From IMG/VR virus record IMGVR_UViG_3300005184_000002, positions 1-45,366 of that record: 45,366 bases of DNA. One strand, 5' to 3'. The stretch is from a virus. This document shows, in pieces, positions 6,297-40,107 of this stretch (the first letter of the stretch is position 1; every line of letters starts with the position of its first letter). The notes below the pieces were generated by a model. It ran no database searches, was not told the origin of the DNA, and saw nothing but the letters and a program-made list of their open reading frames with translations. The position numbers and the translations under genes were made by a program.

Positions 6297-6542
6297 TTAC
6301 GTCAATGGCGTCAGCCAACCCTGCTCCCAGTACAGTTGCAGAACTTTCATAGCAGCAAGACTGTAACTGACGCCTCCGACATCAAACGGCAGATTGGTCC
6401 CGACATGATAGACCGTTCCAAGGAATTCCAATGGTTCGCGGCGGCAGGCGTACTGAACAGTGCCCGAACGCTCGAAGTTCCTTTCGCCGAGCCCAACGAA
6501 TGTCTGTCTTATACCGATTCCACTCGATGTGTCTGTGGCCAT
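6297..6542 (-). CDS. Small hypothetical structural-region protein
   Basis: An 81-residue protein with no recognised family. The ATG at 6542 overlaps the end of the upstream MptE-like gene by 34 bases, but has a strong AAGGAG at an 8-base spacing, which supports it. Notable segments are SGIGIRQTFVGLGERNF and YSLAAMKVLQLYWEQGWL. It may be a tail or connector accessory protein, judged only by position after the tail-terminator-like gene. Confidence 0.7.
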   Translation of the reverse strand: MATDTSSGIGIRQTFVGLGERNFERSGTVQYACRREPLEFLGTVYHVGTNLPFDVGGVSYSLAAMKVLQLYWEQGWLTPLT

Positions 6543-7207
6543 AATTGTTCTCCTTCTGGTTCGATTAACGCTCTGAGAGATATTTCAGACCAGCATGTAA
6601 GAGCTGAGTCCTTGGTGGCGTTCAAGACTTCTACTCCGGCTTCCTTAAGAGGTTCGACCAGAGTTGCGAAACTGGGCAAGTGCGATAGACTGATGACTGA
6701 AGCGTAGCCGTCAGGACGCGGCGAATCGTGCCAGTGCGTGCGGCCATCGACTACGCGCATGTCCATGCCCAACAGCACGATTCTCTTGACTCCAAAATGA
6801 TAAGCCAGATTCATCGCAGCATAACAGCTAGAACTACCGTGGCGCAAGCCTTCTGGAGATTTCTCAAGCCCTTCCTGTCCAGTGAATTTCAATTGACGGA
6901 CCTGAGGGTGCTCCTTGAATACCGGACTGTAACCCCCGTTGACGAATGTCTTTGTGTACATCAGTTGACCGAAATTGATCGTTCTATCGAGGGACCACAG
7001 ATCTCTTTGCATCTGGTCAACAAACCAAGACTCGTCTGTGAAATACAAACAGTCGAGCCAGGGAGCCAGCCGCCAGGAGTCGTTCACGGCTAGAACTCGC
7101 CATCCTGGTCTTTTCAGAACAGATGCATCGAAGCCTCGCAGCGACGGGCCTCCACCTAGAATAAACGCCGTTTGATCAGACCATCTCTTGTCTGCTCTCC
7201 AGATCAT
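6509..7207 (-). CDS. MptE-like/DUF115-type Rossmann-fold protein (copy 1)
   Basis: A 232-residue protein. The N-terminal AFILGGGPSLRGFD (nucleotide-type glycine loop, about 14-27), LAVNDSWRLAPWLDCLYFTDESW and the later SSCYAAMNLAYHFGVKRIVLLGMDM match the family related to MptE (6-hydroxymethylpterin diphosphokinase-like). It is often found in phage head regions and sometimes annotated 'norphogenetic protein'. The substrate is unknown. A second member lies at 9707-10285, with the same GGGPS, LND and AALNLAY..GA..I.L.GYDM landmarks. Such proteins are often associated with nucleotide-sugar or surface modification, but no role is established here. Confidence 0.8.
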   Translation of the reverse strand: MIWRADKRWSDQTAFILGGGPSLRGFDASVLKRPGWRVLAVNDSWRLAPWLDCLYFTDESWFVDQMQRDLWSLDRTINFGQLMYTKTFVNGGYSPVFKEHPQVRQLKFTGQEGLEKSPEGLRHGSSSCYAAMNLAYHFGVKRIVLLGMDMRVVDGRTHWHDSPRPDGYASVISLSHLPSFATLVEPLKEAGVEVLNATKDSALTCWSEISLRALIEPEGEQLWPQTHRVESV

Positions 7208-7217
7208 AATTTAATCC

Positions 7218-7598
7218 TCAAGACCGGGCTTTCATCACTCTGAAGTTCGCTGTCATATTGGGGCGGCCTCGGTCATCATTGAACATCATCGGAGCGTAGT
7301 GCACGGCCTGTACGAAAATGTATCCCGATGCCGGTATGGAATCTTGCAGCAGATCGAAAATGTCTTTCCATTTCGTACGAGCTGTGGTGTAGTCAAGACG
7401 CGAAGCTCGGATACGAACTTGGAACGTGACGCGCTCATTCTCGCGGCCCAGAGTATCGGCGGGCAAGCCTCCGGTCTCGAATATACCAATCATCTGATCC
7501 TGGTCATCTGGGTAGTACCCGAGGTAGACCGGCCAGTTAGGAGCGCCAGCTACGTTATTGGCCAGTAGATAAGCCCGGATGTCATCCATCAGAGGCAT
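7218..7598 (-). CDS. Tail terminator / minor capsid-type protein
   Basis: A 126-residue protein matching the phage minor capsid / tail-terminator pattern: N-terminal DDIRAYLLANNV, YLGYYPDDQDQMIGIFETGGLPADTLG, then FQVRIRASRLDYTTARTKWKDIFDLLQ and a C-terminal beta-rich end. These proteins cap the tail tube and join it to the head. It follows the gp10-like completion protein by 10 bases, the usual gene order in siphoviruses. That implies a long tail whose tube genes were not found in the window. Confidence 0.8.
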   Translation of the reverse strand: MPLMDDIRAYLLANNVAGAPNWPVYLGYYPDDQDQMIGIFETGGLPADTLGRENERVTFQVRIRASRLDYTTARTKWKDIFDLLQDSIPASGYIFVQAVHYAPMMFNDDRGRPNMTANFRVMKARS

Positions 7599-7608
7599 CT
7601 ATTCCTCT

Positions 7609-8010
7609 TTACTTGTTCAAGCCCTTCTTGTACGCACCCATCAAGCGTCCTGGTAGCTCATCCTGTTTGTCTTTTACTGGATTCTCCAGGTATTTAGGGC
7701 CGCTGCCGGGCCGCGTCCAGTTGACCGTCGGGGAAAGATTCTCGTGGACGTACAAGGCATAGCCTACAGCTTCATCTCCGTATCCAAGAGTTACCGATAT
7801 CATATCGCCGGTCTCCTCTGGAAGAAGTACTTTGCCGGTATTCATCAAAGCTCCCGTATCGACCGGGACTATTTCCTTGCTCGCGGCCATGACCTCTTCG
7901 GCGAAACGATATAGTTCACCGGCTACTTCTTTCCGCACGGCCGGACCAGCAGCCTGCTTCAATTTCTCAGTCAGCTTTTCGATTCCATTGACCTTGAGAG
8001 TGATTTTCAT
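7609..8010 (-). CDS. HK97 gp10-like head-tail completion protein
   Basis: A 133-residue protein. The start at 8010 is chosen because it overlaps the upstream stop (ATGA) and follows GAGGAAAGG; the frame extends to 8043. Features are the opening MKITLKVNGIEKLTEKLKQA, then a helical segment, IVPVDTGALMNT (the highly conserved DTGxLxxS-type motif), VGYALYVHENL and a C-terminal PGSGPKYLENPV. This pattern is typical of gp10-family tail completion / neck proteins. It is translationally coupled to an inserted FkbM methyltransferase gene. Confidence 0.85.
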   Translation of the reverse strand: MKITLKVNGIEKLTEKLKQAAGPAVRKEVAGELYRFAEEVMAASKEIVPVDTGALMNTGKVLLPEETGDMISVTLGYGDEAVGYALYVHENLSPTVNWTRPGSGPKYLENPVKDKQDELPGRLMGAYKKGLNK

Positions 8011-8693
8011 CGGCCTTTCCTCTTCCAGGCAAATGTGTAGCATCTATTAAACGAATAAGAAACGCATTTGTGTATGGGAATCCAATCCTTGAATGAGCTT
8101 ATGACCTTTTGGCACCTGTCTTCATCCTGGCGATGCAATTCACCACACACTACTTCTACGAACGCAGGCAATTTTGAACCGTCTAAGAAATACAGTTCAG
8201 ATCCTTCGCAATCCGTCTTTATCAGCGTGGGCTTATGTCGCATCAGCACACTGGAAAAGGCGCTCTGATTAACAGGTAAAGTCATGCGTCCACGAGCTGT
8301 GAATACAGTTGATGCCGAACATGAATTTCCGCTCTGGGGCAATGAAAGATTTACAGTGCCCGCATCCAACCCGACGGCATGGTTCGCTGCGTAAGACGGG
8401 ATACTAAGCCGTTTCAAGTTTTCTAACAAGAGAGCATAAGCTCCAGGTTCGGGTTCATATGCTACTACACTGATTGCTCCTAATGCAGCACTACGAACTG
8501 AAAACATTCCGAAGTTAGCCCCTATATCGAGAACAGATCTGCCAGCTATTTCATTTTCCATCTTGCGATAGGTAACGTTCCACTCTTTTAATATCTGTAT
8601 ATCAGGATTGTGACCTTCTCGGACAAGTATTCCATCGACCTCAATGAGTTTTGTGTACTGCAAACCCGAAGCTCTTTTTACAAAACCGCGCAT
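8007..8693 (-). CDS. FkbM-family SAM-dependent methyltransferase
   Basis: A 228-residue protein. The SAM-binding glycine motif is SVLDIGANFGMFSVRSA (about 54-70), followed by the acidic strand end VVAYEPEPGAYALL. The FkbM signature LIKTDCEGSELYFLDG comes later. FkbM enzymes methylate hydroxyls of sugars and other small molecules. The gene is wedged between connector genes 8702-9058 and 7609-8010, with 4-base overlap on one side. It looks like an inserted cargo gene. Its substrate could be a glycan, including a sugar on the modified DNA proposed at 35-40 kb, but that link is speculative. Confidence 0.9.
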   Translation of the reverse strand: MRGFVKRASGLQYTKLIEVDGILVREGHNPDIQILKEWNVTYRKMENEIAGRSVLDIGANFGMFSVRSAALGAISVVAYEPEPGAYALLLENLKRLSIPSYAANHAVGLDAGTVNLSLPQSGNSCSASTVFTARGRMTLPVNQSAFSSVLMRHKPTLIKTDCEGSELYFLDGSKLPAFVEVVCGELHRQDEDRCQKVISSFKDWIPIHKCVSYSFNRCYTFAWKRKGR

Positions 8694-14130: not shown

Positions 14131-14364
14131 TTATTCCGAAACTTCATCGTCAGAGGGCACAAACCGCCCGTCATCTTCGCAGATTTCACAACCGGGACAA
14201 GCCCGTATGCCTCCACATTTGCACACGCAACCACTGTTTCCTCCACATCCCGTACAGTGCTGAACCGTATCGCCATCACATTCTTTGGGCCACAGACAGA
14301 TACAGGCATCCGATCCAGGCCTCACGGGCTCTTTCACTACAATGGATTTGATGCGCTCTTTCAT
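14131..14364 (-). CDS. Cysteine-rich small protein
   Basis: A 77-residue protein with 12 cysteines between residues 20 and 62, arranged as CICLWPKEC, CTGCGGNSGCVCKCGG and CPGCEIC, and an acidic C-terminus. The spacing suggests two zinc-binding sites, but no family is recognised. Its ATG overlaps the malectin gene stop by 4 bases, supporting real translation. Confidence 0.65.
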   Translation of the reverse strand: MKERIKSIVVKEPVRPGSDACICLWPKECDGDTVQHCTGCGGNSGCVCKCGGIRACPGCEICEDDGRFVPSDDEVSE

Positions 14365-15122
14365 TGCAAGATACAGTTCGCAGCCGGCTCATTAGATCTC
14401 ATAGACCCCGTATCGAAATGGAATCCTGTCCCTTCTGAAGAACAGACTCCATTTACCAGCGTACCCATCTTTTGAGCCGTAGTCTGATTAGTACTCGAAT
14501 TGACCATGCTCCACATGCGGGTTCCAGCACACCAGAACAAGCGTCCTGTATCTGCGGCAAAGAAGAACGACAGCCCCGGAGGGCAAGACTGCGGTATCGA
14601 AGCTTCTGTTCCTGTGAAGTAAGAAGGCGACGGGACACTGTCTATCTGAATCCCCGAAATCAGAGCATTGCCTATTTGGGCCGTCAGAGTAATGATTATC
14701 TTTCCATCAGGTGATGCCACCGGCAGCGTGTAGTCTTTGGGTTGATGCAGACCCGCGACCGCGAACAGATCGATGTTAGACAGAACTACGACCCCATTGA
14801 TTGAAACTGAAAATATCCTCTGACCGGCAATGACCTTGCTCGGTTCAATGAATTTGAAAGTCACTCGATACGAACCCGGAGGAACCATGAACGAATAAGT
14901 AAATCCCGTTCCCGGAGGCTGCGAGAATCTCGAGCGGTTGTACGGGAAGTCAAATTTACCCGCGATGCCTCCCGTCGGAGATCCTCCAACTGCAAAAGAC
15001 CCATCTGGAATCCAGGTGTTACCCGAACTGTCTGTTCCTCCAGGGCCGCCGCAAGCCACGCGGTAGTGTGTGGCCCCCGACAGTATCCAAGCAACTAGAA
15101 AGAGGATCAGTGCGCGATACAT
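14361..15122 (-). CDS. Malectin-domain secreted protein
   Basis: A 253-residue protein. The ATG at 15122 overlaps the upstream stop (ATGA) and opens a signal peptide (MYRALILFLVAWILSGA). Residues ~19-165 match the malectin fold: YRVACGGPGGTDSSGNTW, YSFMVPPGSYRVTFKFIEP, GQRIFSVSINGVVVLSNIDLF and ALISGIQIDSV. Malectin domains bind di- or oligosaccharides. The C-terminal ~85 residues include paired cysteines and WCAGTRMWSM and are unassigned. It is placed among capsid-region genes rather than with the other leader-peptide genes at 1.6-6.2 kb. The GGC/CGG-rich leader style is the same in all of them. Confidence 0.82.
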   Translation of the reverse strand: MYRALILFLVAWILSGATHYRVACGGPGGTDSSGNTWIPDGSFAVGGSPTGGIAGKFDFPYNRSRFSQPPGTGFTYSFMVPPGSYRVTFKFIEPSKVIAGQRIFSVSINGVVVLSNIDLFAVAGLHQPKDYTLPVASPDGKIIITLTAQIGNALISGIQIDSVPSPSYFTGTEASIPQSCPPGLSFFFAADTGRLFWCAGTRMWSMVNSSTNQTTAQKMGTLVNGVCSSEGTGFHFDTGSMRSNEPAANCILQ

Positions 15123-15391
15123 CAGACTACTCTTATCGGATTGATTCTCACCGATATTTCCTGTGAGCATCCAGTCTTGGCGCTCCAGTCTACATAAGAT
15201 ATCGAACCGTAAGCCTCGACATTGACTTGACCGGCCTGATCGAACGTTGAAAGCGTCTGGGCGACAAGAGTATCTATGTTCTTTACGGTTTCCATTTCGC
15301 CGGCATCTGCGAGACTGATGGCCCCGAATTGCTTGGCGATATCATGCATCACGTCCGAAACGCGGCCCTTGGCATATACGCTCCACGACAT
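15122..15391 (-). CDS. Small hypothetical protein
   Basis: An 89-residue protein of unknown function. AGGAG precedes the ATG. The first half is helical (VMHDIAKQFGAISLADAGEMETVKNIDTLVAQTLSTF); the second half is beta-like with VEAYGSISYVDW. It is translationally coupled to the malectin gene by ATGA overlap. Confidence 0.65.
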   Translation of the reverse strand: MSWSVYAKGRVSDVMHDIAKQFGAISLADAGEMETVKNIDTLVAQTLSTFDQAGQVNVEAYGSISYVDWSAKTGCSQEISVRINPIRVV

Positions 15392-17583: not shown

Positions 17584-18483
17584 TCACCCTTTGAAGCGGG
17601 CGCGTCCTGAGAAGCCTGTGTCGGGGGGATTGGCTTTTGTGAATTTCGCAAAGGCCGCTGACTCTTTAGAACTGAGAGTGACTCCATAGTAGGCTCGATT
17701 GCCCACATTGGAGCGCGTCGTTTCTACAATCTTACCATCTTTCATGCCCCAAGTATGCTGATGCCACTGATCCTCCCACGGCCCCGGCGGAGTACGCGCA
17801 TAACCAATGGCGATAGCATCGATCTTTCTTTCCTCGAAAAGCTTACCGGCGTTCTGGTGACACTCACCATCTTTTCCCAGCATTTCCATAGAACCCTTCG
17901 TAGAAATAAACTTGCCTTCAGAAAGGATTCTAGAGAGGTCTGGATCTGTTTCCATCTGATGCTTGGCGGCTATGTAATTCCCACCGGCTTCCAGAAGTTT
18001 GCCTTCTAGTTTCGATGCATCCTTAGATACTTCAGTAGTTCTTTCAGAGGGTTCCTCATTCACCGAAATGCGAGGACCCATGCCCTTCGGTGCCGAAACG
18101 ATCGAACCGTTACGGTTAATCAGTATTTCGCCTTTAGGACCCACGCCTGCGTACTTCAGATTTTTATCGTCGGGAGATAGATAGACCGGATTCGCCCCTG
18201 TCCCAATATTCACCAATCCTGTCAAGCGCAGGCTGTCTCCAATTTTTACATCTTTCCCGGCACCTGTCGTGCCCCATCGCCCGTGTTCACTTCGCGGTTG
18301 TTCGGGGTTGTATTCTTTGTAGACATCTTCTTTTTGGAGGTCTGTCTTTTCTTTTGACTTCCGGGATGCGATGGCCGCTATCACGCCTTCTTCCACCGCC
18401 TGCGCCCAAGCTTCCGAGGGCTCAGTACTAGAATACACCCCGGCCGCCTGAGTTGGTGACTTTGGGTTTTCCGGAAGTGTCAT
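17584..18483 (-). CDS. Linker protein with C-terminal papain-like Cys/His domain
   Basis: A 299-residue protein. The start overlaps the upstream zeta-toxin gene by 56 bases but has GGAG at 5 bases. A variable N-terminus is followed by the linker YKEYNPEQPRSEHGRWG (about 55-71), shared with the two genes upstream. The C-terminal domain has GECHQNAGKLFEE (Cys near 207), AIGYARTPPGPWEDQWHQHTWG (His near 241) and DGKIVETT then AYYGVTL. That Cys...His...D/E order and the YYGV end match a phage papain-like/transglutaminase-like fold. It is probably a hydrolase or transferase acting on protein. No catalytic proof; the linker relation suggests a virion-carried effector. Confidence 0.72.
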   Translation of the reverse strand: MTLPENPKSPTQAAGVYSSTEPSEAWAQAVEEGVIAAIASRKSKEKTDLQKEDVYKEYNPEQPRSEHGRWGTTGAGKDVKIGDSLRLTGLVNIGTGANPVYLSPDDKNLKYAGVGPKGEILINRNGSIVSAPKGMGPRISVNEEPSERTTEVSKDASKLEGKLLEAGGNYIAAKHQMETDPDLSRILSEGKFISTKGSMEMLGKDGECHQNAGKLFEERKIDAIAIGYARTPPGPWEDQWHQHTWGMKDGKIVETTRSNVGNRAYYGVTLSSKESAAFAKFTKANPPDTGFSGRARFKG

Positions 18484-20107
18484 ATTCTCTCCATTGGTGA
18501 GCTACGGTCTTACCTAGATTATAAGCTTGTTTCGGTCGATTGCCGTACGACATGGCGGCTCTTACAGGCACGTAGCGTCCTGTGCGCTGGAACCGCCCGT
18601 ATACGCGCTCGGCGCTGGTAGCATCATCCACATGAGCATGAATAATCCCGATCTTGTAGCCGTCGGCTTTCAGAGCTTCGGCTGTTCTAAGTAGACGGTC
18701 TTGGTTGTCAGTCATATCGAACGTGACGTTGTAGCGCCCTTCGATGGCCGCACGCTCCAGGTAATTTCTGGCGATGTCGCAACTGCGTTCGTGGTAAGCC
18801 GCCGCATTAGACCCGGTGTAGCCCGGGAGCTTGTCTTTTATCTCATCTGAATTGATCGTCACAGACTTCGGTAGAGTCCCGATAGCCTTGGTCATGGTAG
18901 TCTTACCGGCTCCGGGCTTCCCCAACAGGAACACGGCGGTCGGAGCAGTTCCTGGTGGATTTTTGAAAGACGGGTCTAGGAAGCTATCGGCGATCCTTTG
19001 ATTTTCAGCGTGGGCTTCGGGCGTATAGTTGCCCTTTGAATCGGTGATGCTGGGGTCCATGCGGCTGTCGCCCAGAAGCATATTCGTACGTTCGGCCATC
19101 TGTACTTTAGGATCTGCGTCGGATTTATCCAGCACTGCCTGTATGCGCCGCGTCTGCTCAGCCTTATCAGTAGCTGCTCCCGTGCTGCTCCATCGACCGT
19201 GTTCGCCTCGTGGTTGATCTTGATTGTACTCTTTCCAGATGGCTTCATCGAGTTTGGCTAGTTCAGTCTCGGGAACTCCCGAAAGCTCATAAGACGTGCG
19301 CTTCCCCGCGACACACAAAGTGATACTATCGAACGTTACGGAGATGGGCTCCAGGCGCTGAATCGGGAGGTCGTCAGATGGGTCTACATACGCAAGAGTG
19401 ATGTGGGGCGTGTAGCCAAAATCGTTCTTGGCCTTAGTCCCAGGAGTCTCTATAGAACCTAGAAGCTCAGTCCTGAGATCCTGTATTTCTTTTGAGTTGA
19501 ATAGAGCTACTACCACATCGCGGCCCTCACTTGAATCTGAAGACGAGAAACGCATGGGCCCGTCCAACGTCCCCGTGACGGGCCCGTGCGCGGCCGCGAA
19601 CTGCTGTAGCTTGAGTTCAATCGAAGGGATTTCTTTAATGTCTATTTCCGATAGCTTTCCAAAGTATGCCAGCGTGACGTGCATCTCATCGGGGTCTTCA
19701 GATTCTTCAGTCCCGAGAGCCAGTTCGTCAGCTACTTCTTCAGGCGGGAACAGAGCAATCATTACTCCATTGCCCGCTTTGAGAACAGACTCAGGCTCGG
19801 AGTCATTGATAGACTCATCTGATTTCCCGACATCGTCTGGATTGTAGTGCGTAATCCCATCGGTAATAAGAATGTCTTCACTACCCTCGATAAGCCTAGC
19901 CATGTTGCGGGCAGTTTCTACGACATCTGGGGGAGACTTGATGGTCTTGAGACCGGCAATGATCTCCTCGACTTCTTTTGACTGGCCGTCTTCGAACAGA
20001 CGCTCTAACGCAGGGATTCCTTTGCTGGCTTCGCGCAGGTCTATCAAGCCCTTATTGCTGGCCAGAGGGCCCAGACTTTCTTTCTCGTTAACGATTTCGT
20101 AGGACAC
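18428..20107 (-). CDS. 2H phosphoesterase fused to zeta-toxin-like kinase
   Basis: A 559-residue protein with GTG start. An N-terminal region of ~120 residues is unassigned. A 2H (LigT/2'-5' RNA ligase-like) phosphoesterase follows with both signature motifs: MHVTLAYFGKL (about 142) and YTPHITLAYV (about 232). The linker WKEYNQDQPRGEHGRWSS is at about 292-309. The C-terminal zeta/PNK-type P-loop domain has LLGKPGAGKTTMTK (about 392-405), INSDEIKDKLPGY, HERSCDIARNYLERAAIEG and VTFDMTDN. Zeta kinases phosphorylate UDP-GlcNAc and block peptidoglycan synthesis; 2H enzymes cleave 2'-5' oligonucleotides or cyclic nucleotides and can counter nucleotide-signalling defence. No antitoxin-like gene is adjacent. 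Confidence 0.85.
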   Translation of the reverse strand: MSYEIVNEKESLGPLASNKGLIDLREASKGIPALERLFEDGQSKEVEEIIAGLKTIKSPPDVVETARNMARLIEGSEDILITDGITHYNPDDVGKSDESINDSEPESVLKAGNGVMIALFPPEEVADELALGTEESEDPDEMHVTLAYFGKLSEIDIKEIPSIELKLQQFAAAHGPVTGTLDGPMRFSSSDSSEGRDVVVALFNSKEIQDLRTELLGSIETPGTKAKNDFGYTPHITLAYVDPSDDLPIQRLEPISVTFDSITLCVAGKRTSYELSGVPETELAKLDEAIWKEYNQDQPRGEHGRWSSTGAATDKAEQTRRIQAVLDKSDADPKVQMAERTNMLLGDSRMDPSITDSKGNYTPEAHAENQRIADSFLDPSFKNPPGTAPTAVFLLGKPGAGKTTMTKAIGTLPKSVTINSDEIKDKLPGYTGSNAAAYHERSCDIARNYLERAAIEGRYNVTFDMTDNQDRLLRTAEALKADGYKIGIIHAHVDDATSAERVYGRFQRTGRYVPVRAAMSYGNRPKQAYNLGKTVAHQWREYDTSGKPKVTNSGGRGVF

Positions 20108-22039
20108 TCAGCGTATCTTCTCTTTCAGTTGAGACAGAGTGACTTTCTGCATCGATCCGTTGTAGGACTTGCCCTCAACCGGGAGCCTGAAGCATCCGAC
20201 TCCGTTACTTAGATAATACTGCGCCTTGCCAGCTCCATGTCGCATATCAGCTACGATAGTGTACATGCGAAGCTTTTCTTTCTTGGCCTCTTGCAGCTTG
20301 CGCTCGCGGCAGTCTTTTCTCATCGTGACTTGATTGCCCTTGAGGTCGATGAGCGTCTTGATCTCGACTCCAAACTTGCCGGGCGACTTGAGATCGAAGG
20401 GCTCATTGTCACTGGTACGCGGGATTCCAAGTGCGGCTGACAGTTTGCGCTCACTGGCGTCGGCAATGTCCTGTTTTTCCTTCGTATTGGCGTTGTAATT
20501 GGCGCGAGCTATTTCAGCGCGTGACTTAGGATTGGACCCGCCGATGGGAATGTGTTTTCCATTGACGGTAATCCACTCGATAGGATCATCGCCTTCAGCT
20601 TTTAGAGCATCGACTTCTGGGCTATCGTATTTAGACAGTACGCGAGCGGCCCACTTGCCTGCGTGTTTGCCTCCCCATGCGTTTTGTGTCGTCCTAGAGT
20701 CTGTATGTGATTCAACAGCCGCGAAGTGATCTGCGATCTTTTGTATCTCAGCGATCTCGAGACCATCCCCAGAAGACAGAACTTCGGTAATATCTATGAC
20801 CGCGGCTCCCGCATCGTAGGCTTTCTTAGCGGCCTGTTGGACTTCGATGGGAGGATGAAATTTCTTTACGTCATTCTTGTTCTTGTGGCCTTCGACCTGA
20901 CGGAGTCTCTCAACGGCTTCATCCTTGGTATCATAGGGTCCTCCGAGATGTTTTGACCCATCGTGAGAATAGACGTGATAGCGCCCGCCTTCTTCTCTGA
21001 TGATCTTTTCTATAGAGCCGTCTACAGCCGCCTTTTTAAGCTCGTCTGCATTGCCCTCGTCTCCGTCATCATCAGTGAGACCATGGAGTATGAGATAGAA
21101 GCCGGGCTCGAGCTCATCGTCATCCTCGAGGTCTATTTCTTTGAGCTTTTCCTTGCCCCAGCGCAGCATTGAAGTATGCTCTGGGTCATCAGGATGGATC
21201 AGGTCTTTCAAATCAAGGTCTTCATAATCGTCAGGGCAGTCAGCATCGACATAAGCCTGCAACAGTTCCATACCGCGCGAATGCATGACCGCGCCGATCT
21301 TCATTGTCGGGTGATTGAGACAGTCGTCATGTGCATCATTCAAGAAATCTAACTGTCTCTTGATGGCTTCATTGAACGGCTCGGCGGGCTTGCCGTCAGC
21401 TCCTTTACCGGGAGGGGTCTCATCTGGATTCTCGATGTAGTGAGTAATCAGGTTCTTGACGTCGCGGGGCATCTTCCCTTCGGCGTCACCGAGTCGCCAC
21501 GGCCTGAGAGCATCATTGGGCTTGGCGCAGTAAGTATCTGGGTTGCTCTCAGCAATGGCATCACGGGTTTCCTGGGCGCGCCTCAGCGGGCTGCAATGCA
21601 GCACGTCTAAGCCGCCACGCGCGGCTATGCGCTGGCCCACTTTCTCAGCGAGCTTCTTACCATTGGAGTTCAGAGAGATATTCGAATTGCCGCTGATGCG
21701 CTTCTGAACAAGACTGATGCTCTGACTGCCTGGATCGTCTTTGTCTTTCTCTTCATCTTCATCCTCATCATCGACATCAGAACCCAGAGGCCTGTTGACA
21801 TGCACGTCACCGATAGCCGGGGAATCCTTGGCGATGAACTTATCCCCGTTGCGCTGGTAGCCCGCGTCTGCCACGGCTTTGTAGGCTTTAATGTAGGCGT
21901 GCATCTCAGACAATCCCTGACGTAGATTATGATTGAGCGCAAGTCTGAACACGGTACGAGCGTTGTCATCTGCTAGAGCTTCTAGAACGCTCTTTGGCAG
22001 ATCTGAGTTGTGAGTGTACTCAACAAGAGCCAGTCTCAT
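20108..22039 (-). CDS. Multidomain head protein: ChaB-like, degenerate histidine phosphatase, C-terminal nuclease-like domain
   Basis: A 643-residue protein. Residues 1-70 resemble ChaB (SDLPKSVLEALADDNARTVFRLA). At about 75-84 lies IGDVHVNRPLG, the same nine residues that open the major capsid protein. An acidic tract follows. Residues ~106-300 have the histidine-phosphatase skeleton (SPLRRAQETRDAI; AVMHSRGMELL), but the catalytic RHG is replaced by LVQKRISGN, so it may be inactive. Residues 352-385 carry RYHVYSHDGSKHLGGPYDT, common in phage minor head proteins. WITVNGKHIPIGG (about 487) precedes a last domain (FGVEIKTLIDLKGNQVTMRKD, YTIVADMRHG) that looks like a small nuclease fold. It lies between the MuF gene and the zeta fusion. 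Confidence 0.72.
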   Translation of the reverse strand: MRLALVEYTHNSDLPKSVLEALADDNARTVFRLALNHNLRQGLSEMHAYIKAYKAVADAGYQRNGDKFIAKDSPAIGDVHVNRPLGSDVDDEDEDEEKDKDDPGSQSISLVQKRISGNSNISLNSNGKKLAEKVGQRIAARGGLDVLHCSPLRRAQETRDAIAESNPDTYCAKPNDALRPWRLGDAEGKMPRDVKNLITHYIENPDETPPGKGADGKPAEPFNEAIKRQLDFLNDAHDDCLNHPTMKIGAVMHSRGMELLQAYVDADCPDDYEDLDLKDLIHPDDPEHTSMLRWGKEKLKEIDLEDDDELEPGFYLILHGLTDDDGDEGNADELKKAAVDGSIEKIIREEGGRYHVYSHDGSKHLGGPYDTKDEAVERLRQVEGHKNKNDVKKFHPPIEVQQAAKKAYDAGAAVIDITEVLSSGDGLEIAEIQKIADHFAAVESHTDSRTTQNAWGGKHAGKWAARVLSKYDSPEVDALKAEGDDPIEWITVNGKHIPIGGSNPKSRAEIARANYNANTKEKQDIADASERKLSAALGIPRTSDNEPFDLKSPGKFGVEIKTLIDLKGNQVTMRKDCRERKLQEAKKEKLRMYTIVADMRHGAGKAQYYLSNGVGCFRLPVEGKSYNGSMQKVTLSQLKEKIR

Positions 22040-34593: not shown

Positions 34594-34965
34594 CTATTCA
34601 CCGCGAATGTGTTTGATGTACTCCGACGTAGATTCAGCTTTGGTAAATTCGGGGTCATCTCCGATTTCATCGTATTCTCCGATGCCCAATTTGCTTCGGC
34701 AACTCTTGCAAATACCGGATTCTGGACGGTCTACGTAGTTGGTACAATCTTTGTGCGAGCAGATGCCTCGGTTATGCAGATTCTGCTCGCGGATGTTTTG
34801 TACCATTGTTGACGCCGCAGTTGATCCGTATGCGGCCAGCACGGTTACATATAGATGCCATGCGGCAGCCCCCACAATCGTTGCGGGCGCGTTCAGGTCT
34901 ACCAATTTCCGTAGTCTGTCGCAGCACTCTATTACGAACGGTTTGAGTTTCTCTTTTTTGGACAT
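34594..34965 (-). CDS. Small protein with Cys-rich zinc-finger-like site
   Basis: A 123-residue protein; ATG 34965 is chosen because it lies 1 base after the thymidylate-synthase-like stop. The N-terminal half is helical and hydrophobic (ATIVGAAAWHLYVTVLAAYG). CSHKDC...CKSC (GICSHKDCTNYVD, SGICKSCRSKL) is a likely zinc ribbon. Function unknown. Confidence 0.65.
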   Translation of the reverse strand: MSKKEKLKPFVIECCDRLRKLVDLNAPATIVGAAAWHLYVTVLAAYGSTAASTMVQNIREQNLHNRGICSHKDCTNYVDRPESGICKSCRSKLGIGEYDEIGDDPEFTKAESTSEYIKHIRGE

Positions 34966-34966
34966 C

Positions 34967-36031
34967 TTATCGTGCTCCGATATTGGAACCGGCGACTGTT
35001 CGCTTGTTTCTGATACGATCGAGCCATTCAATCACAGCCATGCTCCAATCAGTGGCTAGACAACGATGGGCGTACATCATGGCCTTATCGAGATCACTAC
35101 TCTTGTAGGCGGTCCAGGCCATAAACAATTGTGTCGCTACCTGTGGAAAGAACTGTTGAGTGTAGCTTCCCAAGATATCGCCGCGCATCCATCGACGCAA
35201 TTCCTGGTCCCACGTCTCTTCGTATCCAGGGATGCTGGTATCGACCATCGGAAATGTAGCTACTAGACCCTCAGTATAGTAATCACGAGTAGGGATGGTG
35301 CTCTCCCCTCCAAACTTTTGCCAGCGCTCGGTATAAGCGTGCCAGCTATCAGATATCTGCCAGTATGTTCCAACAGGGACGCCGATCATGGCCGCGAGGT
35401 ATTCTTGGAGCATGCTCATATGTACGACATTGCTCCCGTAGGCCCCCCAGCAAACATCATTCGACCGGCAGCATACGGTCACCGTTAGACGACCTTCTCG
35501 AATCTTGAGATAAATCTGAGTGTTGCACGGCAGATCTCTTATTTCAGGACGTTCGAGATCCCAGATCGGATTCCACATGGCAATCACAGCCCGTCGCTCA
35601 TCAGAACTCTTTTTCAGCATACGGATTACTTTCAATAGCTGATCGGCATAATCGTCTTCAGCGCCTCCATCGAGATCGAACGCCGTCCGCCAGCGCGCTC
35701 CATAAGCTCCATGAAATACCTTGCCGTCATCGCTAAACAGCTTCATGCGCGGATTGTAGTCGGCAATCCAATCGACGTCATCGCGGCCCGCCAGCATCCA
35801 GAGAGCTTCCATGAAGTGAAATATCGGATTGGCGTTGCGTTCGGAGTTGAACAAGACTCTTTCTTTAGGATTCAGATACTCACTGATGACTGGAGCCGGA
35901 TACTCAATAACTTCCCCGGTCCTCGATGGTCGTAAGATGTGTCTTGAATTGAGATGAACCTTGGCGGCGTCCCACATGCCGTTTACATTCGGGGCCGTGA
36001 TGGTCAGTAGCAAAATCAGTTTTCCTTTCAA
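34967..36031 (-). CDS. Thymidylate synthase homologue, possible dUMP hydroxymethylase
   Basis: Up to 354 residues. Conserved fold landmarks are AYGARWRTAF, DERRAVIAMWNP, the catalytic Cys in DLPCNTQIYL (Cys169), CRSNDVCWGAYGSN and the SDSWHAY tyrosine/histidine. The Cys and the phosphate-binding Arg-Ser-x-Asp are kept. The usual His after the Cys is Asn. An Asn in the region of TS Asn177 argues for dUMP rather than dCMP. TS makes dTMP; phage paralogues make 5-hydroxymethyl-dUMP, the precursor of hypermodified thymidines. The surroundings favour the latter, but sequence alone does not decide. AAAGGA lies just inside this ATG, so a TTG at 36013 may be the start. Confidence 0.85.
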   Translation of the reverse strand: MKGKLILLLTITAPNVNGMWDAAKVHLNSRHILRPSRTGEVIEYPAPVISEYLNPKERVLFNSERNANPIFHFMEALWMLAGRDDVDWIADYNPRMKLFSDDGKVFHGAYGARWRTAFDLDGGAEDDYADQLLKVIRMLKKSSDERRAVIAMWNPIWDLERPEIRDLPCNTQIYLKIREGRLTVTVCCRSNDVCWGAYGSNVVHMSMLQEYLAAMIGVPVGTYWQISDSWHAYTERWQKFGGESTIPTRDYYTEGLVATFPMVDTSIPGYEETWDQELRRWMRGDILGSYTQQFFPQVATQLFMAWTAYKSSDLDKAMMYAHRCLATDWSMAVIEWLDRIRNKRTVAGSNIGAR

Positions 36032-36038
36032 TTGAATT

Positions 36039-37052
36039 TTACTTGATATCGAACAGAGTATTCTTAGTAGCGGGTTTTATACGCACGTAGTCAGGTTTGT
36101 CCCAAGGTCGCGGCACGGCGGGCGTATACGGTCCTAGAATCATGGCTTCTTGTATAATGCGCCTGCATTCTTCGTCAGGAGAAGGTAGAGTTTCCTTTCC
36201 CTTCTTGTCGGGAAGCAAGCCCGTGCGGTAGCTCTTGGCATTGCATCCCAGACACGGCCCAAAGTCGCGTTGATGATGAAGCAGCTTTCTACGCGCGGCC
36301 GTGAATCGTTGAGATTGCCATATCTCGTCTATAGGCGCGTCTAAAACATTTCCGATTCGGTATTGGCCGCTCCAGTCATTGCAGCATATTGCTATATTGC
36401 CGTCCCATCGTATTGATAATTCTCGAAAAGGTTTGGCGCATCTAGCGTTTTTCATGCTGTAATCGAGAGGAGCTCCCAGTCCACAATGATTGTTCAAATC
36501 AGCATGACTTCCGGCGGTAGCCTCTGAAATGTCTTGTATGATGATTACGGCATGGGTCGTTATCGAACGGCGGCGATGCGGGCTGTAATCCAATCCATCA
36601 CCTGGATAGTCATAGACCGGGTAAGGTATTTCAGCGCGTCGTTGTCGTATGCGCGGCACTATGTTTACTGTCTTGTAATCATCTAGAGCCAATATGTTCA
36701 GTCCAGCTTCCATCAGATCGGTAATGCGTTCAACAGGATTTCCTCGCAGCAGGCCGCTTCCATTGCTAGTCAGCATGATTTGATTGTCGGGCAAGTGCTC
36801 GCGCAGAATACGGATCAGATCGACATGATGAGGATTCAGTGTGGGTTCGCCGTGCATCGCAAGCTCAATACGGGATGACCATCGTGAATCAGCGATCGAA
36901 AGAGCTATGACTTCGCAGGTCTCGGGAGTCATAAACTTGTACGGCCCTCCGGCATGTTCACGAATACCGTTTTCGCCGCAGAACGGGCAGGCTAAATTAC
37001 AGCCTTCACAACTTTCGATCTGTACGGCAAATGGTGGCTCTTGCTCATACAT
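36039..37052 (-). CDS. Radical SAM enzyme with SPASM-type C-terminus
   Basis: A 337-residue protein. The cluster motif CNLACPFC gives Cys18, Cys22 and Cys25. ELAMHGEPTLNPHHVDLI and IMLTSNGSG are the usual SAM-binding strand regions. The C-terminal SPASM-like part has ARCAKPFRELSIRWDGNIAICCND, IGNVLDAPIDEIW and GPCLGCNAKS for auxiliary clusters. Phage relatives occur in thymidine-hypermodification clusters, where a radical SAM enzyme rearranges the added moiety. It starts 19 bases after the conserved intergenic element. Confidence 0.88.
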   Translation of the reverse strand: MYEQEPPFAVQIESCEGCNLACPFCGENGIREHAGGPYKFMTPETCEVIALSIADSRWSSRIELAMHGEPTLNPHHVDLIRILREHLPDNQIMLTSNGSGLLRGNPVERITDLMEAGLNILALDDYKTVNIVPRIRQRRAEIPYPVYDYPGDGLDYSPHRRRSITTHAVIIIQDISEATAGSHADLNNHCGLGAPLDYSMKNARCAKPFRELSIRWDGNIAICCNDWSGQYRIGNVLDAPIDEIWQSQRFTAARRKLLHHQRDFGPCLGCNAKSYRTGLLPDKKGKETLPSPDEECRRIIQEAMILGPYTPAVPRPWDKPDYVRIKPATKNTLFDIK

Positions 37053-37070
37053 ATAAGTAGTTTCACCTCT

Positions 37071-37095
37071 TTTCTATTTGGCGTTTAGCGACCCT
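37071..37095 (-). repeat. Copy B of 25-base intergenic element
   Basis: 23 of 25 bases match 13993-14017. It lies 19 bases before the radical SAM start and 11 bases from a perfect palindrome at 37106-37127. Confidence 0.7.
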
Positions 37096-37105
37096 ACAGT
37101 AATTT

Positions 37106-37127
37106 TTAGCGGCGGCCCCGCCGCTAA
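37106..37127. promoter_or_regulatory. Perfect 10-base-arm palindrome
   Basis: TTAGCGGCGG, two bases, then CCGCCGCTAA. It is GC-rich, without a following T-run on either strand, so it is more likely an operator or RNA control hairpin than an intrinsic terminator. It lies in the 204-base leader before the radical SAM gene; no gene is seen in that leader. Confidence 0.7.
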
Positions 37128-37256
37128 GTACCACCTGACGGTCTAGAGACAATCCTATGCACCCGCAGGCGTCAATATGAGGCATTGTACGCCGTGTTGG
37201 CGGCAGCGTTTTGCTCGTTTGTGTCATACAGGAACGATAATTGTATGCAGTAATAC

Positions 37257-38108
37257 TCAAAACAGCCTGGGTCTAGCCGCCGCACGGGCGCTCTGCACGG
37301 CTCCGGTCCAATCCACGCGCACATCGATCCTCCGTTCACCGAGAGACTGCTTCCAGCCGTCGGGACTGATGCTTCTCTTCTTGATGATGCTCACGAACGG
37401 CTTGTGAAGCGAAGCCAGTTTTCGGGCGCTGTCTTTCTGAAGTTCCAGATCGCGATACAGGCTGCATCCTCCGGCGGCTCCCGATCCGGGCTGGTTCCAG
37501 ACCCATTCTGAGATCAGAGCCGTGTCGTATCCCAGGGCAATCAACGACAGTGACACGTGCATGTCTTCCATGAGAGGAGTGGCGTCAAATCGTATTTTTT
37601 CCTTGTCTAAGATATCAGCTCGTACTCCGTACAGATTGCAAGTTTTCTTGTTGAGGCACAATCCAGGTTCGAGTTCATAGGCATACTTCGATCCGTATCT
37701 CAAAGCGAGGAAGGCGTCGTTTCCCTGACGCGCTGAAACTCCGACCATCGGGTATTTGTCTAAGAGCAGTTCGATACGGCCAAACATTTCCTCGATATCA
37801 CTTGGGATACAGACTTTGAGTCTGGGACTTGAGGGATTCTCGCGTCGAAAGAAGTAATGATCGTCGTCAGTCATGCAAAGTTTTGTTGACTTGGAGGCCA
37901 GTGTTCTCTCGACCAGCCACTGACGCGTCGCGGCGATGCCTTCTACAGAACACGACAAGACATTTCGGTCGCGGCTCCGGTGCTCATTGACTTCGGACGG
38001 CGGGCATACGAGCAAGGTCTGCGGCTTCAGTGATTCGGGAATGCGGTCCCATGTCTTCTGACTTGCGATGCGACCTCGGGTCGGAATGTAGATTTTCATT
38101 GACTTCAT
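37257..38108 (-). CDS. Glycosyltransferase, GT-A-like (TET-associated type)
   Basis: A 283-residue protein. KIYIPTRGRIASQKTW opens a nucleotide-sugar fold. LCMTDDDHYFFRRE (Asp80-82) gives a DxD-type metal site and ATPLMEDMHVSLSLIALGY a catalytic acidic motif. The pattern recalls the phage/fungal TET-associated glycosyltransferases that act on modified bases. Overlap with the next gene is 4 bases (ATGA). A plain cell-surface glycosyltransferase is the alternative. Confidence 0.72.
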   Translation of the reverse strand: MKSMKIYIPTRGRIASQKTWDRIPESLKPQTLLVCPPSEVNEHRSRDRNVLSCSVEGIAATRQWLVERTLASKSTKLCMTDDDHYFFRRENPSSPRLKVCIPSDIEEMFGRIELLLDKYPMVGVSARQGNDAFLALRYGSKYAYELEPGLCLNKKTCNLYGVRADILDKEKIRFDATPLMEDMHVSLSLIALGYDTALISEWVWNQPGSGAAGGCSLYRDLELQKDSARKLASLHKPFVSIIKKRSISPDGWKQSLGERRIDVRVDWTGAVQSARAAARPRLF

Positions 38109-39193
38109 TTCGTCAGCTCGCGGTAGTACGCCTCAGCGATTGTGACCGGGTCATGGACTCTCTCCAAGTGCTTCACGCTGTCACATCTTATCATACTCAA
38201 TTTCTTTTGAAAAGTCTTAGAACCGGCAGCTTCCTTGATTAGCGAAGTCAATTCCTCGAAGCTCGTCACGCTCAAGCAATTGAAGCCGTCTTTCATTTCG
38301 CCGGAGTAACGAAGCCAGTCTTTGTGAATGATGTTGACGGTTCCGGCGTCCCAGGCTTCCATGAACGTGTACTGACTTCCTCCTCCGTCGTTGGGGAAAT
38401 ACGTCAGATCTACAGCGAGCTTGTACTTCGACGCCGCTCTAGCCGCGGCTCCGTGCTCAAAAGGCTGGCCGGTCTTTCCCTGTTCAAAGTCTGGAAACAT
38501 CTTTCGCAGTCGGTGGTGAGTGTATAGCCTGTTCTCTGACCCGAGCAGAACGACGCGGTCACTTGACTCCAGATGTGAGTTGGCTGTCAGAATCATCTCA
38601 GTTCGTTTCACGAACGTAATCCGCGCCAGCGAGCAGGCTGTCTTGCGCGATTCGTAATCCTCGCTTGTCCAATCGTCTGAAAATTCTCTTTCGTAAGGAT
38701 GTGGAATTATCACGGCGCTAGGAAAGAAAGCTTTCATCGTTGGTCGTATTCCAAAAATCTTGTTCTTGCTTAGAACCCTGTCTGCGAACAGTCCCTGAAT
38801 CGATAGTCGTAATGAATCGAGGTGATCATACACTCCGCGCTTGCCGTCGTGATAGAACTCATTGGGATCGTGGACCACGATGCTCATTCCAAGACCGGTC
38901 AGGTCTTTCAAGAGTTCGGGTTCAACCAGATCGTCACTTCTCTCGGCGGCCGTCAGCAGCGATGGCTCGGTCTCCACAATCTCTTTCAGTTCCTCACGCG
39001 TGACGCGGGTCTCTTCGATTCCTGTATATCCTCCAAACTGATGTGATCGATTCGCAGTCTTGGTCTTAGACGGTCTTAGAAGCTTCACCCCGATGTCGGC
39101 TATTTTGAACGCTCGATAGAGGTGAACTGTGAAGCTTGTCGATCCTCCTCCCAGATGCTTTCGAGCGTAGATCAGGTTTACGTTCTGGTTCAT
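38105..39193 (-). CDS. Glycosyltransferase, GT-B-like
   Basis: A 362-residue protein. ATG 39193 is chosen; an in-frame extension to 39394 lies over the next gene. IYARKHLGGGSTSFTVHLY near the N-terminus, GMSIVVHDPNEF, VIIPHPYE and the donor-site segment GGGSQYTFMEAWDAGTVNIIHKDW indicate a GT4-like enzyme. It probably transfers a sugar to the modified base or to a sugar already placed by the neighbour. Confidence 0.82.
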   Translation of the reverse strand: MNQNVNLIYARKHLGGGSTSFTVHLYRAFKIADIGVKLLRPSKTKTANRSHQFGGYTGIEETRVTREELKEIVETEPSLLTAAERSDDLVEPELLKDLTGLGMSIVVHDPNEFYHDGKRGVYDHLDSLRLSIQGLFADRVLSKNKIFGIRPTMKAFFPSAVIIPHPYEREFSDDWTSEDYESRKTACSLARITFVKRTEMILTANSHLESSDRVVLLGSENRLYTHHRLRKMFPDFEQGKTGQPFEHGAAARAASKYKLAVDLTYFPNDGGGSQYTFMEAWDAGTVNIIHKDWLRYSGEMKDGFNCLSVTSFEELTSLIKEAAGSKTFQKKLSMIRCDSVKHLERVHDPVTIAEAYYRELTK

Positions 39194-39207
39194 TTTGTCT
39201 TCGCTTT

Positions 39208-40107
39208 TCAAATCAGACGTGACTGACCCCTGAACCGTTCGAGTCCCACGGCCCTCCCGGCTCGGAGTCTTTCCTGGGCGCGGCGGTATTTGTCGTACTC
39301 GCAGCAGCAGTGTTCGATATCTCTCATCTCGAGCGTCGGGAGGATGTCTTGGTTTTTGTTGGCTCTTATCCAGCAGTAGATTTCTTTCATGCAATCGATC
39401 AGGTCTTGTCGGCTCAATCGAGCGGTCTTGAAATCGAGTTCTAAGAGTCTACAGATTCCGCGCCGGGCACCCGGTCCGGGATTGGCCCACGTGTAGATGT
39501 CTGTCGCATTCTCAAGATATCTGGTCCATCGCAGGTCTGTGACTACTTCGTAAGCCAGAAAATTTCCAAATCCGTGAAATTGACTGAACCACTCGGTAGC
39601 AGCCTCGAGAGTCAAATCTTTTTTACGGCGACCGTCAGCCCATACGGGAACCGCTTTCTTCGATCGAACGCTCTTCCAGAGAGGGTCTAACACGCGGTTC
39701 ACGGTGTAGACCGCCTTCGAAGTCTCTCCGTGACTCGAAATCATGTAGGCGCTGGTGTAGACCTTTTCGTCCCTAGACGCCCTCTTGAGCATCGTAGACA
39801 GAACTCTTTGAGCGTTCCAGGTCTTAGGAAATCCGATTTCCTCCAAAGTGGGACTCCAATTGATCTGTCTGAAGAGGCTTACCGCGAACCAGAGGTTCTC
39901 GTGTCTTTTCTGCGGCTCTATCCAGTTCTTGTGAAGCCACCGGGTCTCGCGGTCTTGGTTTCTGTAGACGTTGCAGAACCGGTACCGTCTCATGACGGGG
40001 TCTTCCGTCCATGGAGGTTTTTGGTCTTCGATTCGCTTCAAGTAGATTTTCTGTCTTTCTTCCATCCATGTTAAGAGGCTTCGTAAGTTCTTGACTTTGA
40101 TTTTCAT
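39208..40107 (-). CDS. DNA base hypermodification protein, hmdU-kinase-helical / aGPT-PPlase-like
   Basis: A 299-residue protein, first gene of the minus-strand block. PPWTEDPVMRRYRFCNVYRNQ followed by DRETRW, then NLWFAVSLFRQINWSPTLEEIGF, YTSAYMISSHGET and FHGFGNFLAYEVVTDLRWTR, is the conserved pattern of the all-helical family found in 5-hydroxymethyl-dU DNA kinases and alpha-glutamyl/putrescinyl-thymine pyrophosphorylases. No P-loop is present, so a pyrophosphorylase/transferase-type role on DNA is more likely than a kinase. It pairs with the TS homologue and radical SAM gene. Confidence 0.82.
   Translation of the reverse strand: MKIKVKNLRSLLTWMEERQKIYLKRIEDQKPPWTEDPVMRRYRFCNVYRNQDRETRWLHKNWIEPQKRHENLWFAVSLFRQINWSPTLEEIGFPKTWNAQRVLSTMLKRASRDEKVYTSAYMISSHGETSKAVYTVNRVLDPLWKSVRSKKAVPVWADGRRKKDLTLEAATEWFSQFHGFGNFLAYEVVTDLRWTRYLENATDIYTWANPGPGARRGICRLLELDFKTARLSRQDLIDCMKEIYCWIRANKNQDILPTLEMRDIEHCCCEYDKYRRAQERLRAGRAVGLERFRGQSRLI

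Follow-up and report, generated by a model that had tools for sequence, protein, structure and literature searches.

Base J is a known sugar-bearing thymine, and sugars on thymine derivatives are also reported for phages that encode their own glycosyltransferases. The Bacillus phage SP-15 carries a glucosylated dihydroxypentyluracil made with a teichuronic-type gene set (PMC5977210), and the Yersinia phage YerA41 probably carries a sugar-bearing thymine derivative of unresolved structure (PMC9023294); the available portions of these two reports do not mention a radical S-adenosylmethionine (SAM) enzyme. In the cytosine glucosylation of phages T2/T6, a thymidylate synthase (TS)-family enzyme makes the hydroxymethyl pyrimidine and a GT-B-fold enzyme is paired with TAGT, which puts a second glucose on alpha-glucosyl-hydroxymethylcytosine; solitary TAGTs occur in 288 of 753 phage genomes, and their role is openly left unresolved (PMC13216743). 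The cassette of Pseudomonas phage M6 consists of an amino acid:DNA transferase (ADDT, gp51), a pyridoxal phosphate (PLP) enzyme (gp52), a radical SAM enzyme (gp53), a 5-hydroxymethyl-deoxyuridine (5-hmdU) kinase (gp54), HMUDK_hel (gp55), Nmad5 (gp56), TS (gp58), and an HD nucleotidase (gp59). HTVC023P-type pelagiphages have TS, aG/PT-PPlase1, nucleotidase, and TAGT-like genes and were interpreted as M6-like; the GT-B and radical SAM genes of the locus studied here go unmentioned in the available part of that source (PMC9599517). This locus is a cassette of five genes in the IMG/VR virus record IMGVR_UViG_3300005184_000002, analysed in its whole length of 45,366 bases of environmental DNA and referred to below as the window.

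The enzyme families found in the cassette, their active-site residues, their linkage, and the absence of kinase and ADDT families from the window make it likely that the cassette produces glycosylated 5-hmdU in phage DNA, this product being a prediction. By gene content the window belongs to a tailed phage (Mu-like portal and F proteins, terminase, DnaB-like helicase, primase, and Dam-type methylase). The initial annotation had described five minus-strand open reading frames (ORFs) encoding an HMUDK_hel/aGPT-PPlase-like protein, two glycosyltransferases, a radical SAM/SPASM enzyme, and a TS homologue, with a YfbR nucleotidase close by, and all of these genes are present. The five are co-directional, in the order HMUDK_hel, GT-B, TAGT, radical SAM/SPASM, and TS-like; their assignments are borne out by Pfam and PHROG profiles and, for GT-B, by the modelled fold:

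39208-40107, minus strand: HMUDK_hel (PF18723) protein, 299 amino acids, homologue of M6 gp55 (Pfam E 3e-50)
38105-39193, minus strand: GT-B-fold glycosyltransferase, 362 amino acids, assigned by predicted structure, without a Pfam or PHROG family
37257-38108, minus strand: TAGT glycosyltransferase (PF20691), 283 amino acids (Pfam E 4.8e-12; phrog_842 E 3e-41)
36039-37052, minus strand: radical SAM/SPASM enzyme, 337 amino acids (Pfam Radical_SAM E 4e-11; SPASM E 4e-13)
34967-36031, minus strand: TS-like putative deoxyuridine monophosphate (dUMP) hydroxymethylase, TTG start, about 354 amino acids (Thymidylat_synt E 6e-18; phrog_5131 E 6e-99)
34594-35031, minus strand: small ORF between the TS and HD genes, without a Pfam or PHROG family, found otherwise only in a near-identical contig (L004/L009)
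33812-34402, minus strand: YfbR-like HD 5'-deoxynucleotidase, counterpart of M6 gp59 (PF13023/PF12917 E about 2e-6; phrog_6047 E 8e-20)

The window shares with M6 the TS-like hydroxymethylase, HMUDK_hel, the YfbR/HD protein, and the relative order of these three genes. In place of the HMUDK kinase, ADDT, and the gp53-type (photolyase-like) radical SAM enzyme of M6, it has GT-B, TAGT, and a SPASM radical SAM enzyme that is BtrN-like and unrelated to gp53; no PLP enzyme was found in the cassette. Neither the HMUDK kinase (PF18748) nor ADDT (PF18724) has a match across the 45,366-base record, with M6 as a positive control for both. The HMUDK_hel part of the initial name for 39208-40107 holds, but the protein is not ADDT, which is a separate Pfam family. 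The absence of a P-loop DNA kinase, also claimed there, stands for the HMUDK kinase; a P-loop domain of another kind (zeta/AAA_33) does occur at 18428-20107, in the structural module. Compared with T2/T6, the window adds HMUDK_hel and the radical SAM/SPASM enzyme, and its TS homologue has the uracil-type Asn.

Related loci were collected by IMG/VR searches with GT-B, radical SAM, and HMUDK_hel as queries. The same gene set recurs in shuffled orders, for example radical SAM, GT-B, TAGT, HMUDK_hel, TS, and HD in L005, and radical SAM, TAGT, GT-B, HMUDK_hel, TS, and HD in L006. Since the same families co-occur in divergent contigs in shuffled gene orders, the clustering is not due to chance. Among the loci fetched with HMUDK_hel (n=80), TS is near in 79 and TAGT in 78. 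When 87 dereplicated HMUDK_hel loci were sorted by partner, 66 had TAGT or GT-B, 14 had kinase or ADDT, seven had neither, and none had both; several of the seven have other glycosyltransferase-like ORFs adjoining HMUDK_hel, with weak Pfam scores. A Fisher test on the collected loci (P 2e-11) is descriptive only, as it ignores relatedness and the way of sampling. Across 48 whole glycosyl-type or radical-SAM records, the TAGT cut-off was exceeded in 36 and kinase or ADDT was found in none, the controls M6 and L110 being positive. The layout also occurs in cultured phages: in LuckyBarnes (Brevibacterium phage), TS, two TAGTs, and HMUDK_hel are consecutive genes, Neferthena (Microbacterium phage, L225) carries HMUDK_hel, TS, and TAGT, and the kinase and ADDT families were not found in either complete genome. 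Homology, the active-site residues, and the recurrence in many phages lend good support to the sugar-bearing, kinase-free thymidine island of the initial annotation, but its layout is not unique, TAGT with TS and HMUDK_hel in the absence of a kinase being common.

The TS homologue shares 41% identity with its M6 counterpart. In TS-family enzymes, Asn at the base-reading position marks those acting on uracil and Asp those acting on cytosine, as established for thymidylate synthase and deoxycytidine monophosphate hydroxymethylase. The catalytic Cys and the phosphate-binding Arg are found in all 187 aligned sequences and the base-reading Asn in 186, including the window; the TS of LuckyBarnes likewise has Asn. 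The homology and these residues argue strongly for a uracil-type enzyme that would convert dUMP into 5-hydroxymethyl-dUMP (5-hmdUMP). The YfbR/HD gene, in the same relative place as that of M6 gp59, probably encodes a nucleotide-pool enzyme.

The TAGT protein scores 46.7 bits against the curated PF20691 cut-off of 27.5. Its DDD motif (D81-D83) is intact, D82 and D83 being invariant in 53 sequences, and by analogy it is proposed for a second or alternative sugar transfer. For GT-B, the AlphaFold model is of good quality (mean pLDDT 88.2, pTM 0.89) and has the GT-B fold, with the DNA-bound T4 DNA alpha-glucosyltransferase (PDB code: 1y6f) as its top PDB match (E 1.8e-12, TM 0.67). A sequence search of the PDB with the GT-B profile gave no match, and its sequence has no significant match to the T4 enzyme, hhalign aligning just 41 columns with E 0.036 and a probability of 1.4%. 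The motifs H109-D110 and DGGG(S/T)QYxxxEAxDAG are conserved across 21 relatives. From its modelled structure, GT-B is proposed to make the first sugar transfer to 5-hmdU. The GT-B and TAGT genes overlap by 4 bp; the start of GT-B is most likely the ATG at 39193, the alignments not supporting a TTG-extended start at 39394.

The radical SAM/SPASM enzyme has invariant cysteines at C18-C22-C25 (CxxxCxxC) and C205/C223-C224/C267-C270 in 11 sequences. Its profile matches BtrN best in the PDB, over the core and the C-terminal cluster domain (E 1.5e-25), so that BtrN is its best solved relative across both domains; BtrN itself is a cellular enzyme of antibiotic biosynthesis (2-deoxy-scyllo-inosamine dehydrogenase), whereas the phage enzyme sits in DNA-modification cassettes. 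The initial annotation had linked it with the radical SAM enzymes of known pathways, M6 among them, but no profile similarity to M6 gp53 was found beyond the cluster-binding motif, and the enzyme accompanies glycosyltransferases instead. TAGT or GT-B of this family lies within 3 kb in 74 of the 86 loci fetched with radical SAM. Mainly because TAGT or GT-B is within 3 kb in 16 of the 18 such loci with neither TS nor HMUDK_hel in reach, the substrate is taken to be a sugar rather than the base, and the enzyme probably remodels a sugar, either DNA-bound or on the donor. Sugar-related genes also adjoin members of the set, namely a UDP-glucose dehydrogenase beside radical SAM and TAGT (L017) and a cytidylyltransferase/mannose-6-phosphate isomerase protein beside GT-B (L054).

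One alternative, differing from this scheme in a single step, is that the target of the radical SAM enzyme is the side chain of thymidine prior to any glycosylation, the sugars then going onto the remodelled C5 substituent. Lee et al. (2021) reportedly described the M6-type radical SAM enzyme as an isomerase. Radical SAM enzymes are part of M6-type thymidine cassettes (PMC9476957), and in the window the gene adjoins that of TS. This order of events is nevertheless unlikely, though worth keeping in mind, since the enzyme has no profile similarity to gp53, its family accompanies TAGT even where TS and HMUDK_hel are not near, and BtrN oxidises an aminocyclitol. Two arrangements of related genes were seen besides: paired copies in the order radical SAM, TAGT, TAGT, radical SAM (L011/L012, 5398-8987), neither TS nor HMUDK_hel being present within about 8 kb, and a 196-amino-acid protein between TAGT and radical SAM of a related cassette (L008, 9644-10231).

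Several observations weigh against glycosylated 5-hmdU as the product. The first concerns the base. In Neferthena, the base-reading residue of TS (7416-8282) is Asp, which suggests a cytosine version of the system there; HMUDK_hel may thus not be tied to thymidine. Together with the CMP 5-hydroxymethylase MilA as the nearest solved relative of the TS homologue (E 7e-32) and with the action of the T2/T6 TAGT on glucosyl-hydroxymethylcytosine (PMC13216743), this would fit a T-even-like glycosyl-5-hydroxymethylcytosine. Such a product is highly improbable for the window, whose own enzyme has Asn, as do all but one of the other 186 sequences in the alignment, and whose closeness to the M6 enzyme is to one from a 5-hmdU pathway.

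The second concerns the sugar enzymes. The GT4 enzyme HepE nearly ties with the T4 alpha-glucosyltransferase as a structural match of GT-B, and by its fold the model fits GT4 enzymes that do not act on DNA almost as well as it fits DNA glucosyltransferases. Six distant relatives of GT-B (L218-L223, 25-32% identity) are lone genes in soil Nitrososphaerales contigs. These findings are what would be expected if the glycosyltransferases and the radical SAM enzyme modified a cell-surface or virion glycan and lay beside TS and HMUDK_hel by coincidence. Set against that, these genes turn up beside TS and HMUDK_hel time and again with the gene order reshuffled, TAGT is present in nearly all HMUDK_hel loci, and the T2/T6 TAGT has DNA as its known substrate; a glycan is regarded as highly improbable as well. 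A bacterial or archaeal home for GT-B was also considered and rejected, as only these six archaeal genes were found, with no other cassette genes beside them and no module.

The third concerns the missing kinase. The completeness of the record is uncertain and part of the genome may be missing, so that an M6-like amino-acid hypermodification, with its kinase and transferase in the missing part or in unrecognised genes and with the glycosyltransferases acting elsewhere, would be compatible with the M6 counterparts TS, HMUDK_hel, and HD. L110, whose HMUDK_hel groups as sister to that of the window (SH-aLRT 99%), is a locus with kinases and ADDT. A 4-kb contig (L103, 1-4087), kept out of the count of 87 as its HMUDK_hel is cut short, has HMUDK_hel, a SPASM radical SAM enzyme of the same family, and an adjoining sub-threshold HMUDK-like kinase together, and possibly represents a hybrid pathway; it further carries a SAM methyltransferase and a possible GT-B-like ORF. 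Even so, an M6-like pathway is improbable: kinase and ADDT are missing from all 48 whole related records as well as from the complete LuckyBarnes and Neferthena genomes, and the P-loop protein at 18428-20107, tried as the missing kinase and rejected, shares only the Walker A motif with M6 gp54.

The last concerns HMUDK_hel. The window protein is 37% identical to M6 gp55 and its model is all-helical (pLDDT 92.6), but a Foldseek search of the PDB gave as best matches only HhH DNA glycosylases, non-significant at E 0.7-1, and a PDB search with the sequence profile gave no match. Since no structural match is significant, any role assigned to HMUDK_hel is a guess. It is the component common to kinase-type and glycosyl-type cassettes, and for this reason it is proposed as a subunit that would recognise 5-hmdU in DNA or present it to the modifying enzymes. 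No fusions of HMUDK_hel to a kinase or glycosyltransferase occur among the fetched loci. The possibility that HMUDK_hel is itself ADDT was rejected, the two being distinct Pfam families (hhalign E 0.038, probability 1.4%); GFG...D and C-terminal E...C motifs do align between their profiles, at a score that is not significant, hinting at a possible distant common descent.

A two-state count on the HMUDK_hel tree requires at least two partner changes. Because the closest HMUDK_hel relative of the window sits in a kinase/ADDT locus, it appears that the modifying partners of HMUDK_hel have been exchanged, with the proviso that L110 ends about 180 bp past HMUDK_hel and a glycosyltransferase could lie beyond.

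A proposed pathway to glycosylated 5-hmdU can be described as follows. From its homology and active site, the TS-like enzyme would turn dUMP into 5-hmdUMP. Kinases would then raise this to the triphosphate for incorporation by the polymerase, while the YfbR-type nucleotidase may trim competing deoxynucleotides. Once 5-hmdU is in DNA, HMUDK_hel may recognise or present it, and GT-B would link a sugar to the hydroxymethyl group. TAGT may add a second sugar, or both may act alternatively; these transfers are suggested by the T2/T6 precedent of an alpha-glucosyltransferase plus TAGT. Finally, the BtrN-like radical SAM/SPASM enzyme may oxidise or remodel the sugar. The likely benefit would be resistance to host nucleases.

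Other features of the window lie outside the cassette. The protein encoded at 18428-20107 (minus strand) combines 2'-5' RNA ligase-like (2H phosphoesterase) and zeta-toxin/AAA_33 domains, and its gene adjoins those of a histidine-phosphatase protein (20108-22039) and a Mu F-like protein; the products of 18428-20107 and 20108-22039 are possibly a virion-carried pair for nucleotide or RNA-end processing. An ORF at 6509-7207 (minus strand), downstream of the head genes, matches the PHROG 'alpha-2,3-sialyltransferase' (E 1.7e-33), and a malectin-domain protein is encoded at 14361-15170. Scanning the window for Rfam families and tRNAs gave no matches.

Although priority is uncertain, the apparent novelty lies in how broad the kinase-free class is and how nearly it excludes kinase and ADDT, in the unnamed GT-B family, and in a BtrN-like radical SAM enzyme that follows glycosyltransferases. 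One broader scheme, for and against which the evidence is about evenly balanced, is that HMUDK_hel is the hallmark of a general platform of 5-hmdU (or hydroxymethyl-pyrimidine) in phage DNA with an exchangeable effector, either kinase plus amino acid transferase (M6-like) or, in a widespread second class, glycosyltransferases, and that in the window the sugar, once on DNA, undergoes additional remodelling by the radical SAM/SPASM enzyme, giving an undescribed DNA base. A radical SAM enzyme acting on a DNA-bound sugar would be new enzymology, and the cultured phages with the kinase-free layout make the predicted base directly testable. If true, the platform would suggest a role for HMUDK_hel as a shared component and would mean that many of the so far unexplained solitary TAGTs (PMC13216743) have a substrate. 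The findings suggest that phages glycosylating thymidine without the kinase and amino-acid route may form a large class.

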